From positions 1 to 26,470 of the forward strand of contig DJWQ01000177.1 of assembly GCA_002441045.1 (NCBI GenBank): a DNA stretch of 26,470 bases, read 5' to 3'. The position numbers were made by a program, and so were the translations under genes. The DNA is from Firmicutes bacterium UBA6226. GTDB taxonomy: Bacteria > Bacillota_A > Clostridia > Peptostreptococcales > Acidaminobacteraceae. Shown here one piece after another: positions 556 to 17,625 of the stretch (position 1 is its first letter; each line of letters starts with the position of its first letter). The notes under the pieces were generated by a model that saw only the letters and a program-made list of their open reading frames with translations, was not told the origin of the DNA and did no database searches.

Positions 556-2376
556 ATGAAACCGTTTAAATGGGTAAAGTTATTAATTTTTGGACTTGTG
601 TTTTGTACCTTAATGCTTTTTGCATTTAATATCATCGTTGATCCTTTTGGTGTTTTCGGTGATCGCTTCATCAATTTTTTCGCATATGATATGAACAATA
701 ACCCAAGGGTTGCAAAAATCGCTTATCTGGATCAACATCATGATGAATACGATTCTTATGTGATCGGTGGGTCGAAATCAAGTTCGTTATCGCCTGAAAA
801 ACTCAATCAATATTTTGAAGGGGCATCGTTTTATAATATGATGATGTATGGTGGCGATTTTTATGACTATGAGCAAACTGTTCATTATCTAGTAGAGAAC
901 TATGAAGTTAAAAACATCATCGTCCACATGAGCATGCAGGAAATTGATCACTACAACCAATCGCCACGTAACATCAACACTGAGTTAAGTGGTAAGGTTT
1001 TAGGTGAATCTCAACTAAAATACTATACTAAATATCTTACTTTGAACCTTGAGCACGGCTTTAAAAAGATAGCTGGCTTGATTCAGAGAACTCAAAACCC
1101 TATGGCTTATGCGACATTTGTGCCTGAGCTTGGGGTCTATAATAAAAGCGTAAGGGACAGTGAAGACTTAGGGACTTTAGAAGATTTTTTGGTTAAGTAT
1201 CCTGAATTTAACGAGCCATTGTGGCCACTTTACGGTACTGCTATAGACGATAATGTCGCTGCACTTAAGCGTATAAAGACGTATCTAGAAGAAAAGGGAA
1301 TCAACTTTTACTTCGTTTCAGCGCCTACTTATTATAAAGAGATGGACCGATATGAGACCGCAGACATTCAAAAGCTTTGGAGAGGGCTCGCTAGTGTAAC
1401 CGATTTTTGGGATTTTACAGGATATACTGATTTTTCATACGATGCTAGAAATTTCTATGATAGAATGCATTACCGTAACACGCTAGGTGATCTTATGGTA
1501 GAGACGATGTTTTCTGGTGAGCAGCCAGTGAGTGATTTTGGTTATTATACAACTTCTGAAAATGTTGAAGAAAGACTAATGAGTATGCTTTCAGGACGTT
1601 TAGAAGTGGAACCTGGCGAGCCTTTATCGGTACCTATAGTGGTTTATCATCACTTATTATCTAAAGCAGATGACAGCGACAATATAACTTTAGATAAGTT
1701 CAAGGCAGATCTTGAAGCCTATAAGAATGCTGGGTTTACCACGATAGTATATTCTGATTTGATTAATTATGTCTATGACGGTATCGCCCTTCCTGAAAAA
1801 CCATTAATCATTTCCTTTGATGACGGGTATCTGAGTAACTATGAGCTGGCTTATCCTCTTTTGAAAGAGATGAAAATGAAAGCAGTTATATCTATGATTG
1901 GCTGGTCGGTAGGTCTCGACTATGATGTGATGAATGATCGACCAATTATACCTCACTTTACATGGGAACAAGCCAAGGAAATGACTGAATCTGGAGTAAT
2001 CGAGCTCCAGTCGCACAGCTTTGACCTACATGCGCTTCAGAGTGATGAGGGCACAAGAGCAGGTGTTTTACAGCTTCCAGTTGAAGATGAACTGGCCTAT
2101 ATTGCGACGTTTAAGCAGGACAATGCGCTTTTTCAAGCAGAGATGATTCAAAATATCGAGCGAAGAGCAACCTTCTTTACGTATCCATATGGGTATTATA
2201 ATGCCTTTACTGAAGGGCTGTTAAAGAATATTGGTTACTTTGGGAGCGTTACGGTTGAGGAAGGGATCAACCTTATCGATCGGAATCCAGAGTCTCTTTT
2301 CGGGCTTAAGAGAATTGATGCAGCTGGTTATCTTACCCCAGAGATGATTGTTGAAAAAATATTACAATTCCATTAA
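556..2376 (+). CDS. SGNH/DltD-like domain fused to NodB polysaccharide deacetylase
   Basis: This 606-residue protein has an N-terminal membrane anchor (about residues 8-28) and two enzyme-like halves. The first half has an SGNH/DltD-like layout: GGSKSSS at 71-77, with Ser73 as candidate nucleophile, and a C-terminal DRMH at 302-305 giving the Asp/His pair. The second half, from about residue 352, is a carbohydrate-esterase-4 (NodB) domain. It has SFDDGY at 420-425, the metal-binding HSFDLH at 487-492, and TYPYG at 542-546. It follows the MBOAT gene by 12 nt with a strong SD (AGAGGAGG) before ATG 556. The pair resembles AlgI/AlgJ or PatA/PatB acetylation modules, with a deacetylase attached to the partner. 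The protein is probably extracytoplasmic and acts on a surface polysaccharide. Domain calls are from motifs; the SGNH call is the weaker one. Confidence 0.82.
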   Translation: MKPFKWVKLLIFGLVFCTLMLFAFNIIVDPFGVFGDRFINFFAYDMNNNPRVAKIAYLDQHHDEYDSYVIGGSKSSSLSPEKLNQYFEGASFYNMMMYGGDFYDYEQTVHYLVENYEVKNIIVHMSMQEIDHYNQSPRNINTELSGKVLGESQLKYYTKYLTLNLEHGFKKIAGLIQRTQNPMAYATFVPELGVYNKSVRDSEDLGTLEDFLVKYPEFNEPLWPLYGTAIDDNVAALKRIKTYLEEKGINFYFVSAPTYYKEMDRYETADIQKLWRGLASVTDFWDFTGYTDFSYDARNFYDRMHYRNTLGDLMVETMFSGEQPVSDFGYYTTSENVEERLMSMLSGRLEVEPGEPLSVPIVVYHHLLSKADDSDNITLDKFKADLEAYKNAGFTTIVYSDLINYVYDGIALPEKPLIISFDDGYLSNYELAYPLLKEMKMKAVISMIGWSVGLDYDVMNDRPIIPHFTWEQAKEMTESGVIELQSHSFDLHALQSDEGTRAGVLQLPVEDELAYIATFKQDNALFQAEMIQNIERRATFFTYPYGYYNAFTEGLLKNIGYFGSVTVEEGINLIDRNPESLFGLKRIDAAGYLTPEMIVEKILQFH

Positions 2377-2381
2377 ATGGA

Positions 2382-2410
2382 TTGAAGGCAGACGCAACTT
2401 GTGATATATT
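2382..2410 (+). promoter_or_regulatory. Sigma-A promoter P1 of the hflX leader
   Basis: TTGAAG (2382-2387), a 17-nt spacer and TATATT (2405-2410) form a near-consensus promoter directly after the stop of the preceding gene. The expected transcript start near 2417 puts the ribosome binding site of the first leader ORF almost at the 5' end of the RNA. Confidence 0.7.
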
Positions 2411-2433
2411 TTAAATATTAATGGAGGTGCAAG

Positions 2434-2484
2434 ATGAGATTACGTAAAAATAGCCGAGTTCAATTAAATAGTATTAAGGCCTAG
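2434..2484 (+). CDS. Leader peptide uORF1 (16 aa, MRLR arrest motif)
   Basis: A 16-codon ORF encodes MRLRKNSRVQLNSIKA. It has a strong SD (GGAGG, 2423-2427) six nt before the ATG and lies just inside the predicted P1 transcript. The peptide opens with MRLR. In ErmD-type leader peptides this Arg-X-Arg sequence is sufficient for ribosome arrest in the presence of macrolides or ketolides (established knowledge). An intrinsic terminator follows 37 nt after the stop, before hflX. The peptide has no recognisable function as a mature protein. The best reading is a cis-acting sensor of antibiotic-inhibited ribosomes. The SD, the promoter and the terminator are seen; the sensing role is inference. Confidence 0.7.
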   Translation: MRLRKNSRVQLNSIKA

Positions 2485-2521
2485 TGTAATCAAGTCTGAC
2501 CGTTCATGAATTCGTTTTTTG

Positions 2522-2551
2522 AGCTGTAAGCTTTGTCTTACAGCTTTTTTT
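2522..2551 (+). terminator. Intrinsic terminator inside the hflX leader (candidate attenuator)
   Basis: AGCTGTAAG (2522-2530) and CTTACAGCT (2537-2545) form a perfect 9-bp stem around a 6-nt loop, followed by a run of seven T (2545-2551). It lies between promoter P1/uORF1 and hflX, so readthrough is needed for P1 to reach hflX. I found no long antiterminator pairing by eye. A short GATTAC/GTAATC pairing (2438-2443 with 2486-2491) links the MRLR codons to the segment just after the uORF1 stop. Confidence 0.8.
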
Positions 2552-2565
2552 GTTGTCATAAACGT

Positions 2566-2595
2566 ATTGTAAGTGTCATGCTTACAATCTATAAC
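2566..2595 (+). promoter_or_regulatory. 8-bp inverted repeat overlapping a promoter-like element
   Basis: ATTGTAAG (2566-2573) and CTTACAAT (2581-2588) are perfect inverted arms with a 7-nt spacer. They overlap TTGTAA-N17-TATAAC (2567-2595), which reads as a sigma-A promoter. The core TGTAAG...CTTACA is the same as in the terminator stem at 2522-2545, so the arms could also pair across the two hairpins. If this were a promoter, its start near 2602 would fall inside the uORF2 SD and remove it. It may thus be an operator-controlled second promoter for hflX alone, or simply an RNA hairpin. Confidence 0.4.
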
Positions 2596-2610
2596 ATAGG
2601 AGGGTGTGTC

Positions 2611-2652
2611 ATGTTAAGTTTTATCAAATTACGCCGTAGTACAAGTTTGTAA
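2611..2652 (+). CDS. Leader peptide uORF2 (13 aa, KLRR motif)
   Basis: A 13-codon ORF encodes MLSFIKLRRSTSL. It has a strong SD (AGGAGGG, 2598-2604) six nt before ATG 2611 and stops 48 nt before the hflX start. Residues 6-9, KLRR, fit the basic-X-basic (+X+) macrolide-dependent arrest motif known from Erm leader peptides and from ribosome-stalling studies. A perfect hairpin begins 4 nt after the stop codon. This looks like a second regulatory leader peptide, acting on translation of hflX rather than on termination. There is no evidence for a function of the peptide itself. Confidence 0.6.
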   Translation: MLSFIKLRRSTSL

Positions 2653-2656
2653 TAAC

Positions 2657-2694
2657 CACCTAAAAGCATCCTTTTAGGTGAATACCGAAAGGAG
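2657..2694 (+). promoter_or_regulatory. Alternative hairpins around the hflX ribosome binding site
   Basis: CACCTAAAAG (2657-2666) and CTTTTAGGTG (2671-2680) form a perfect 10-bp stem with loop CATC. It has no T-run, so it is not a terminator. TCCTTT (2669-2674), which sits in the loop and right arm, is also an exact complement of AAAGGA (2688-2693), the hflX SD. The two pairings exclude each other: the 10-bp hairpin leaves the SD free, and the alternative pairing hides it. Ribosome position on uORF2 could select between them (inference). Confidence 0.55.
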
Positions 2695-2700
2695 ATTATG

Positions 2701-4008
2701 ATGACTGAACAATTAAATGCCTATAATGAGAGGCAAAATTATAACCTTGAAACCGTTAATGCTGAAAAAGCAGTTGTAGTAGGGGTTAATATCAATAACA
2801 ATCCACTTTATGAAAATTCGATGACTGAACTCGAGAATTTAGCCCTCGCATGCCAAATACAATGTGTGGCTAGAGTGGAACAAAATTTAAAACGTGCGAC
2901 GACACAATATTATGTTGGCAGTGGAAAAGTAGATGAAATCAGAATGGGTGTAGAAGCCTTTGATGCGGATCTTGTGATCTTTAATCATGAGCTAACGCCA
3001 TCACAGATGCGGAACTTAGAGAAAGCTTTAAGCGTTCGTATCGTTGATCGAACCAATCTGATACTGGAAATCTTTGAACGTCGTGCCCAAACAAGAGAAG
3101 CGAAGCTTCAAGTAGAAGCGGCACATCTGAAATACCTTTTACCGAGACTGATTGGTTCATATGAAGCTCTAGGCCGTCAAAGTGGTGGTGTAGGGACGAA
3201 AAATAAAGGTGTTGGTGAAAAGAAACTTGAGCTCGATCGACGTAAAGTGGAGCAAAAAATTCATGATTTAAACCGTGAAATCGATCAAGTTGAAAAGGAA
3301 CGCATCACTCAGCGTAAGAAAAGAGCAGACTCAAGAGTAAAAGGCGTTGCGCTTGTGGGATATACCAATGCTGGGAAGTCCACTTTGATGAATGCCATGC
3401 TAGACCTATATTCTCAGAAAAAAGAAAAAAAAGTTTTTGAAAAAGATATGCTTTTTGCAACGCTGGAAACCTCTATTCGTCAGATGAAGCTGCCTGATAA
3501 AAAGACGTTTACACTTTCAGATACGGTTGGATTTGTCAGTGAGCTACCACACGATTTGGTTAAAGCGTTTAGAGCAACGCTAGAAGAAGTCAAGCAAGCG
3601 GATTTATTATTACACGTTGTCGATCTTGCCAACTCGGATTATAGACATCAAATGCAAGTGACACTTGAAACACTAGCTGAGATAGACGCAGCGGATGTAC
3701 CCATGCTGACCATTTATAACAAAGCAGATATCGCTACTGTCGATTTAAGCGAACTAGTAGATGGGATCGTCGTGAGTGCAAAAACATCAATGGGTATTGA
3801 TTCGCTTGTAGATGCAATCAAAGCATATATTTTTAAGGATTTTATCGACTGTGAAGTGAGAATTCCTATTGAAGATGGTAAGCTATTTGCCTACATCAAT
3901 GAATATTCTGGTGTTAGTGAGATGCGTTTTGAAGAAGAATCAACCATTCTGCAAATCAGTTGTAGTCCAGAAGTTTATGAGAAACTCAAAATGTATATTG
4001 TCGCTTAG
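2701..4008 (+). CDS. hflX: GTPase HflX (ribosome-associated, ribosome-splitting)
   Basis: This 435-residue protein has the HflX layout: an N-terminal HflX domain with QYYVGSGKVDEI and the helical EAKLQVEAAHLKYLLPRL segment, a long charged coiled coil (about 160-210), and a TRAFAC GTPase domain. The GTPase has G1 GYTNAGKST at 220-228, G3 DTVGF at 274-278 and G4 NKAD at 340-343. HflX binds the 50S subunit and splits stalled or stressed 70S ribosomes. Some homologues (HflXr of Listeria) give macrolide and lincosamide resistance and are induced through a leader. I prefer ATG 2701 because AAAGGAG ends at 2694, giving 6 nt spacing; ATG 2698 would leave only 3. It is a single gene with its own terminator and sits behind a leader with two +X+ peptides. 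That context favours an antibiotic-responsive HflX. Confidence 0.95.
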   Translation: MTEQLNAYNERQNYNLETVNAEKAVVVGVNINNNPLYENSMTELENLALACQIQCVARVEQNLKRATTQYYVGSGKVDEIRMGVEAFDADLVIFNHELTPSQMRNLEKALSVRIVDRTNLILEIFERRAQTREAKLQVEAAHLKYLLPRLIGSYEALGRQSGGVGTKNKGVGEKKLELDRRKVEQKIHDLNREIDQVEKERITQRKKRADSRVKGVALVGYTNAGKSTLMNAMLDLYSQKKEKKVFEKDMLFATLETSIRQMKLPDKKTFTLSDTVGFVSELPHDLVKAFRATLEEVKQADLLLHVVDLANSDYRHQMQVTLETLAEIDAADVPMLTIYNKADIATVDLSELVDGIVVSAKTSMGIDSLVDAIKAYIFKDFIDCEVRIPIEDGKLFAYINEYSGVSEMRFEEESTILQISCSPEVYEKLKMYIVA

Positions 4009-4034
4009 AATCGTTGTTATAAGTGTCAAGTTTT

Positions 4035-4067
4035 CGGTCAATTGCTGAGTCAATTGACCGATTTTAT
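4035..4067 (+). terminator. Intrinsic terminator after hflX
   Basis: CGGTCAATTG (4035-4044) and CAATTGACCG (4051-4060) form a perfect 10-bp stem with a 6-nt loop, followed by ATTTTATTT. Confidence 0.82.
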
Positions 4068-4095
4068 TTGCTAATAAATTCAATTAAGATATAAT
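4068..4095 (+). promoter_or_regulatory. Possible upstream promoter for the Cache-GGDEF-EAL gene
   Basis: TTGCTA (4068-4073), a 16-nt spacer and TATAAT (4090-4095). It would give a leader of about 110 nt. The downstream promoter at 4156-4184 is the better candidate. Confidence 0.4.
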
Positions 4096-4155
4096 ATTTA
4101 TATAAGTTTTTATAAGCATTTTGAATTTTTTTTGCACGAAGTTCTTGTATACATA

Positions 4156-4184
4156 TTGTAGCTTCTTTCAAATCTAAATATACT
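4156..4184 (+). promoter_or_regulatory. Promoter of the Cache-GGDEF-EAL gene
   Basis: TTGTAG (4156-4161), a 17-nt spacer and TATACT (4179-4184). Transcription would start near 4191. That leaves about 20 nt before ATG 4210 and excludes the TTG at 4189 as a start. Confidence 0.6.
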
Positions 4185-4209
4185 AAAATTGCCATTCATT
4201 GGAGATCCT

Positions 4210-7664: not shown

Positions 7665-7751
7665 GCCGAAGTGGTGGAATTGGCAGACGCGCCGGACTCA
7701 AAATCCGGAGAGGTAACACTCGTGCGGGTTCGACCCCCGCCTTCGGCACCA
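7665..7751 (+). tRNA. tRNA-Leu (anticodon CAA)
   Basis: An 87-nt class II tRNA. The acceptor stem is GCCGAAG/CTTCGGC, followed by discriminator A and an encoded CCA. The anticodon stem CCGGA/TCCGG encloses the loop CTCAAAA, which gives CAA, reading UUG. A long variable arm and the T-arm GCGGGTTCGACCCCCGC are present. A terminator follows 10 nt later. Confidence 0.97.
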
Positions 7752-17539: not shown

Positions 17540-17625
17540 TGGTGCAGATGGCGGGACTCGAACCCGCATGAGCTATGCTCGCTACCCCCTCAAGATAGTG
17601 TGTATGCCAGTTTCACCACATCTGC
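17540..17625 (-). tRNA. tRNA-Leu (anticodon GAG)
   Basis: An 86-nt class II tRNA on the minus strand with acceptor stem GCAGATG/CATCTGC and an encoded CCA. The anticodon stem CTATC/GGTAG encloses the loop TTGAGGG, giving GAG (reads CUC and CUU). The T-arm is GCGGGTTCGAGTCCCGC and the variable arm is long. Confidence 0.96.

Follow-up and report, generated by a model that had tools for sequence, protein, structure and literature searches.

Several described leaders share parts of their design with the hflX leader reported here. In Listeria monocytogenes, as at this locus, an hflX-type gene, hflXr (lmo0762), is preceded by a short RLR peptide and a terminator; read-through of this leader, rli80, is antibiotic-dependent, the one-peptide attenuator was shown experimentally, and a second hflX paralogue of the same species is not induced like hflXr (PMC6310831). 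The uORF uORFC-6-1, which precedes hflX in Bacillales, likewise carries RLR and is associated with a conserved RNA structure (PMC8632094). A pair of peptides is found in mefA/msrD, where two serial erythromycin-sensing peptides, MefAL (which carries MRLR) and MsrDL, act on one gene in what its authors term a "double lock" (PMC10314930), and in ermB, whose macrolide response involves the two leader peptides ErmBL and ErmBL2 (PMC8274638). Both levels of attenuation, transcriptional and translational, meet on one resistance gene in Bacillus subtilis tlrB (PMC6851288) and vmlR (PMC9226507), where they are exerted through drug-stalled ribosomes. Stalling with telithromycin depends critically on the basic-X-basic motif (Arg/Lys-X-Arg/Lys, here +x+), stalling with erythromycin less so (PMC8298421), and in the ErmK leader MRLR is the stall site and MTHAMRLR the minimal inducing sequence (PMC4335068).

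The DNA analyzed here, called the window, is a whole stretch of 26,470 nt. The leader under study occupies positions 2382-2700 on the + strand, 5' of hflX. A promoter-like site, uORF1, an intrinsic terminator, uORF2, two overlapping alternative hairpins (2657-2693) and hflX follow one another in that order. Both uORFs are short, are led by a Shine-Dalgarno (SD) sequence and carry an Arg/Lys-X-Arg/Lys motif that is conserved, as is characteristic of +x+ leader peptides; to our knowledge, MsrDL has no +x+ motif. The features are listed below, where L001 denotes a locus whose HflX is 93% identical to that of the window and L002 and L087 denote two further relatives.

2382..2410, + strand: sigma-70-type promoter-like site TTGAAG-N17-TATATT with TG 5' of the -10, from a sequence scan; both hexamers unchanged in L001
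2423..2427, + strand: SD of uORF1, GGAGG
2434..2484, + strand: uORF1, MRLRKNSRVQLNSIKA, with the +x+ motif at residues 2-4; MRLR kept in L001
2521..2552, + strand: intrinsic terminator between the uORFs, a stem at 2521-2546 followed by a U tract; identical in L001
2566..2588, + strand: hairpin ATTGTAAG/CTTACAAT 5' of the uORF2 SD, from folding and alignment with L001
2598..2604, + strand: SD of uORF2, AGGAGGG
2611..2652, + strand: uORF2, MLSFIKLRRSTSL, with the +x+ motif KLR at residues 6-8; identical peptide in L001
2657..2680, + strand: predicted hairpin 2:3, CACCTAAAAG-CATC-CTTTTAGGTG, with the hflX SD left accessible; counterparts in L001, L002 and L087
2669..2693, + strand: predicted alternative hairpin 3:4, TCCTTTT-a-GGT / ACC-GAAAGGA, burying the hflX SD; from folding in which a terminating ribosome occupies segment 2
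2689..2694, + strand: SD of hflX, AAGGAG
2698..4008, + strand: hflX, GTPase HflX, start at 2698 or 2701; TIGR03156, 2.5e-128

The product of hflX scores 427.9 bits against TIGR03156 (E 2.5e-128), over the curated cut-off of 216.75. A terminator-like hairpin at 4034-4061 lies immediately 3' of hflX, and the gene is therefore probably monocistronic. Rfam at gathering thresholds gave no match at the window's leader; two tRNA genes were found in the window, at 7665-7748 (+) and 17543-17625 (-). Ten relatives scanned whole with Rfam gave no leader match, their sole hit being a T-box elsewhere in L006.

The described systems differ from this arrangement in several respects. The Listeria hflXr/rli80 leader has one peptide and acts on transcription, and the portions of that report available to us describe neither a second peptide nor a translational switch (PMC6310831). 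uORFC-6-1 is a single uORF, predominantly of Bacillales, for which an effect on transcription is proposed (PMC8632094). In mefA/msrD both locks are transcriptional and mefA lies between them (PMC10314930), whereas ermB, with another gene and other peptides, is described as subject to translational attenuation (PMC8274638). A single uORF serves both levels in tlrB (PMC6851288) and vmlR (PMC9226507). No two-peptide hflX leader was found among the titles and abstract beginnings of the open-licence PMC literature. The earlier note was not aware of a two-peptide arrangement for hflX; novelty is confined to the two-peptide, two-level arrangement, because single-peptide hflXr/hflX leaders were already known (PMC6310831, PMC8632094). 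What is new is that two separate peptides, one per expression level, serve one gene and are conserved.

We put at roughly 0.75 the probability that the leader attenuates an hflX of drug-response type through ribosome arrest in two stages. In the transcriptional stage, an antibiotic-bound ribosome would stall at MRLR in uORF1, the downstream RNA would refold, and RNA polymerase would pass the terminator at 2521-2552. In the translational stage, a second ribosome would stall on the KLR of uORF2 on the longer transcript, staying short of segment 2 (2657-2666), so that hairpin 2:3 would form and the hflX SD would be open; an unstalled ribosome at the uORF2 stop would instead cover segment 2, and segment 3 would pair with the SD. 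Full hflX output would be obtained only when both peptides arrest, which would make the leader a serial double lock. We infer that the uORFs are translated, that arrest on them is drug-dependent, that read-through occurs, and that this HflX rescues drug-stalled ribosomes.

The pair of uORFs is beyond chance. Among 3000 dinucleotide shuffles of 2382-2700, scored for strong-SD ATG ORFs of 5-25 aa, none contained two such ORFs and 10 contained one with +x+. Over the whole window the strong-SD short-ORF rule yields four ORFs on the + strand and four on the - strand; those with +x+ are just uORF1 and uORF2 on the former and one on the latter. The earlier note had reported two ORFs of 16 and 13 codons with consensus SDs, each with an arrest-type motif (MRLR in uORF1, KLR in uORF2), and their lengths and sequences are as it gave them. 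The promoter that it placed upstream is present at 2382-2410, though as a consensus match only, with five sites in 2300-4200 against an average of 6.0 in shuffles. The terminator at 2521-2552 and the alternative hairpins between uORF2 and hflX are additions to what it claimed. Its view of a tandem leader with one peptide per level is supported: the first +x+ peptide is followed by a terminator and the second by a switchable SD hairpin, an order that recurs in relatives.

L001 has the same promoter hexamers, terminator and pair of peptides as the window. Its uORF2 differs by one silent base change. Its uORF1 retains MRLR with four later residues changed, the pattern expected if the arrest motif and not the rest of the peptide is under selection. 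Searching 41 genomes of the family to which Fusibacter bizertensis (G002) belongs with the HflX of L087 gave a close HflX in 7 of them (E at most 1.6e-146). Counting the window, two uORFs around a terminator are present at seven of eight such loci; L003 has module 2 only. The peptides of these relatives are as follows.

L002: first MMKLRGNYDN; second MLIKKTVNYIKLRA
L087: first MFKLRVCVTTEY; second MFTVKFTQNNRLRA
L088: first MKLRDYSMIKVNKRNYR; second MNKFMRLKNSTLK
L139: first MMKLRLS; second MFKLCRLRRVMIIH
L090: first MMKLRLS; second MLKLCKLCRVIIIH, without a strict +x+
L003: MLMIYFVKLRD only

KLR stands near the start of the first peptide in L002, L087, L088, L090 and L139, and KLR, RLR or RLK is found in the second peptides of L002, L003, L087, L088 and L139. 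The motif is conserved in relatives as amino acids and not as nucleotides. Its codons are AGA TTA CGT in the window, AAA TTA AGA in L002 and AAA TTG AGA in L088, and as read from these sequences it is preserved through synonymous and charge-conserving codon changes. The earlier note had named lack of conservation in close relatives as one refutation of its reading; the peptides are conserved there, and that reading is not refuted. G001, G002 and G003 each carry a second hflX, 47-48% identical (loci L084-L086), and the same scan revealed no +x+ uORF at these three second copies. No relative was found among the viral contigs scanned with HflX.

A wider survey covered 172 distinct hflX loci, each with 400 nt or more of upstream sequence; identical starts were merged, and up to 750 nt were examined. 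The strict tandem order (peptide 1, terminator, peptide 2, hflX) is present at 14 of these loci and in none of 1300 shuffled upstream regions. Thirteen of these tandem loci are convincing, the doubtful one being L008, which passes solely by virtue of a late KYK; the strict rule also reports one spurious extra uORF1 in L007. Tandem loci amount to 13 of 65 at HflX identities of at least 50% and to none of 92 under 48.5%, with one (L019) just under 50%. Inspection of 620 nt upstream of 15 loci revealed the same order in other clostridia. L007 has MFIVKMRLRYLV, a terminator and MILNGGIFHIRLRG; the first and second peptides are MGYFFIRFRNLV and MAYRFSFSHIRLRG in L009 and MRNFFIRIRNLV and MRMWINIFYIRIRI in L013; and L004 and L005 are tandem with the first peptide near -650. 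On present sequences, then, both uORFs, the terminator between them and the alternative hairpins can be read in an order that recurs in relatives. The conserved two-module leader is real, and most likely it attenuates an hflXr-type gene in response to antibiotic serially, first in transcription and then in translation. Because a number of clostridial relatives share the peptide pair, the two-step antibiotic switch is probably real.

All 14 tandem loci belong to a single 34-row group of the HflX tree, the one that includes the window; its support of 91 falls short of the 95 mark. A +x+ uORF of the second type is present in 26 of these 34 rows, 14 tandem by rule and 12 labelled single for having no terminator after a +x+ uORF (L003, L102, L184, L198, six of C. 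difficile type, L006 and L010). Two of those so labelled, L006 and L010, have another kind of first uORF plus a terminator further upstream. The eight rows without a +x+ second uORF are L020, L025, L026, L028, L090, L101, L164 and L177. Many loci outside the group have peptides of the RxRF type, and in these a single peptide is combined with a terminator. Parsimony requires seven changes for 15 tandem rows (the 14 and L090), and none of 500 label shuffles gave a value as low. L020 has lost uORF2 and still has uORF1, the terminator and the SD-switch hairpin, while its close relative L022 is complete. Because L020 lost uORF2, and L003 and others are without module 1, the modules were seemingly lost separately. 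In L006, L010 and L008 (about -340 to -510) the first uORF encodes a 23-residue peptide without a convincing +x+ (MKKLFIVLKKFNKIHTAYNNRVI in L006, MKNLFRIFNKSNICCSNSKYKTI in L008), ahead of a terminator and an RLR second peptide; this first peptide may sense a different drug. In the same tree PDB chain 8a57, which we take to be Listeria HflXr, joins three lactic-acid bacterial rows; the deeper supports are 74, 93 and 75, and the window's HflX is not firmly placed with this chain.

The terminator at 2521-2552 is intrinsic and is sited between a leader peptide, uORF1, and hflX, as in transcription attenuators. The distance from the end of its stem to the uORF2 SD is 51 nt in both the window and L001, reaches 97 nt in L013 and is 9-26 nt in L002, L004, L005, L007, L008 and L088. 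The shortest gaps leave hardly any room for another promoter, so that expression of uORF2-hflX in these six loci almost certainly depends on read-through. The same distances weigh against an alternative in which only one module matters: uORF1 and the terminator end an older or separate transcript, a second promoter drives uORF2-hflX and control is purely translational. L003, L102 and the C. difficile loci L017 and L023 do have uORF2 without a recognizable first module, and TTGTAA-N17-TATAAC lies between the terminator and uORF2 in the window. However, transcription starting from this site would be expected to begin about inside the uORF2 SD, and MKLR or MRLR is conserved in uORF1 although that uORF is otherwise divergent. 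We regard this explanation as unlikely.

The SD and first codons of uORF1 pair with RNA 3' of uORF1, as an anti-antiterminator would; the fractions of shuffles for this pairing are 0.052 in the window, 0.03 in L001, 0.032 in L002, 0.008 in L087, 0.068 in L088 and 0.33 in L139. A convincing antiterminator was not found in the window. The best pairing there (-8.4 kcal/mol) is equalled by 29% of shuffles, and a strong conventional antiterminator was rejected for the window on this ground. In a static fold with a stalled ribosome the terminator is still dominant in six of seven leaders, the exception being the window, where it falls from 1.0 to 0.33. A segment ACTTGC, complementary to the terminator 5' arm, is discernible by eye in L002, L087, L009, L013, L020 and L022, and none of this type was seen by eye in the leaders of the window or L001. 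The transcriptional stage as proposed is based chiefly on the leader's anatomy and the precedent of Listeria. The hairpin at 2566-2588 shows, in an alignment with L001 judged by eye, one A-U to G-C change on both sides. Its CTTACA arm could alternatively pair with the terminator 5' arm.

For the translational stage, the 3' arm of hairpin 2:3 can alternatively pair with the hflX SD (3:4), and 3:4 is predicted to form once segment 2 is hidden beneath a ribosome that has reached the uORF2 stop. The modelled openness of the window's hflX SD is 0.63 with a stalled ribosome, against 0.15 with a terminating one and 0.59 with none. Since the SD is 0.59 open without a ribosome, tight repression would need a flow of terminating ribosomes. 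Among 25 loci the SD is more open with the stalled ribosome in 23; the difference is at least 0.11 in 15 and at most 0.01 in nine, and it is reversed in L010. The mean stalled-terminating difference over 15 representatives is 0.17, against -0.003 with the spacer shuffled; on shuffling, the 15-locus mean had an sd of 0.036, and its largest value in 20 sets was 0.087. A simple test of SD pairing is non-significant for the window alone (p 0.25) and modest over 15 loci (Fisher p 0.0012). Across nine clostridial leaders the consensus of hairpin 2:3 has 12 predicted pairs, of which 5 show replacement of both bases in one or more of the sequences; the covariation term is small (-0.34), and two of the nine rows look misaligned in the inner helix. 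Helix 3:4 was judged by energy tests, spacer indels putting the SD out of register in the nine-leader alignment. By eye, hairpin 2:3 also has a counterpart in L003, where the fold prefers 3:4. By prediction, then, the window has what defines a translation attenuator, namely alternative hairpins of which one hides the SD and which a ribosome switches, and the relatives give a mixed result. The division between transcription and translation drawn in the earlier note is consistent with the anatomy and, in the case of the window, with the folding model.

These results bear on a second alternative, namely that only uORF1 and the terminator sense the drug, uORF2 simply holding ribosomes on the leader or providing translational coupling to hflX. 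The Listeria hflXr attenuator, transcriptional and with one peptide (PMC6310831), would be a precedent, L020 retains uORF1 and the terminator without uORF2, and nine of the 25 modelled loci show no effect of the SD switch. A second-type uORF with +x+ is nevertheless kept in 26 of 34 rows of the window's HflX group (14 tandem, 12 single), and the modelled switch is large in the window, which together make a bystander role for uORF2 quite unlikely.

Some neighbouring genes agree, indirectly, with a macrolide-type cue for the two-stage attenuator. In L184 the leader and hflX lie directly 3' of an Erm-type gene end, a C-terminal piece that scores 105.3 bits with Erm23S_rRNA_broad against a full-length cut-off of 212, and in L102 directly 3' of the end of a gene like that for an RlmA-type 23S rRNA guanine-N1-methyltransferase (63.9 bits on the piece; cut-off 303). 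It is very unlikely that the peptides sense another cue, such as arginine or lysine starvation or another class of tunnel-binding drug, for although the codons of KLR and RLR are Arg and Lys codons and the cue may vary given that the first peptide of L006, L010 and L008 is without a convincing +x+, the alternation of K and R conserves charge and not one amino acid, which speaks against sensing of starvation for a single tRNA, and the target gene encodes a ribosome splitter that in two relatives lies 3' of the end of a 23S rRNA methyltransferase gene.

HflX splits stalled ribosomes, and because of this it could clear both leader arrests and so shut off its own gene. If the two-stage reading is true, a ribosome-splitting factor is subject to two antibiotic checkpoints that are independent and lie at different levels of expression, as against one peptide for both. 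Retention and loss of the modules across clostridia would then provide a natural series for studying why a double lock is needed, the drug ranges of the peptides and the feedback of HflX on the arrests in its own leader. More tentatively, and at rather less than even odds, a serial AND gate built from two arrest peptides that evolve separately, the first read by RNA polymerase and the other by the initiating ribosome, could be widespread in clostridial hflXr-type genes, with modules lost and swapped independently; in some species the two peptides may respond to different drugs.

Minor observations were made at several other loci. In L025, L026 and L177, close kin by HflX, no convincing +x+ peptide was found and a hairpin GGCTGCAGGTG...CATTTGCAGCC lies just 5' of hflX. 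L101, of the C. difficile-type group, has kept the 3' half of the SD-switch hairpin, with coding-like DNA adjoining and uORF2 absent. L184, L198 and L102 have hflX with an RLR leader, in L184 after the Erm-type gene end and in L102 after the RlmA-type one; the leader peptide of L184, MIMNGGIASIRLRG, presumably resembles the ErmQ leader. Two adjacent copies of hflX, the second with internal stop codons, were noted for G686, L188 and L198.
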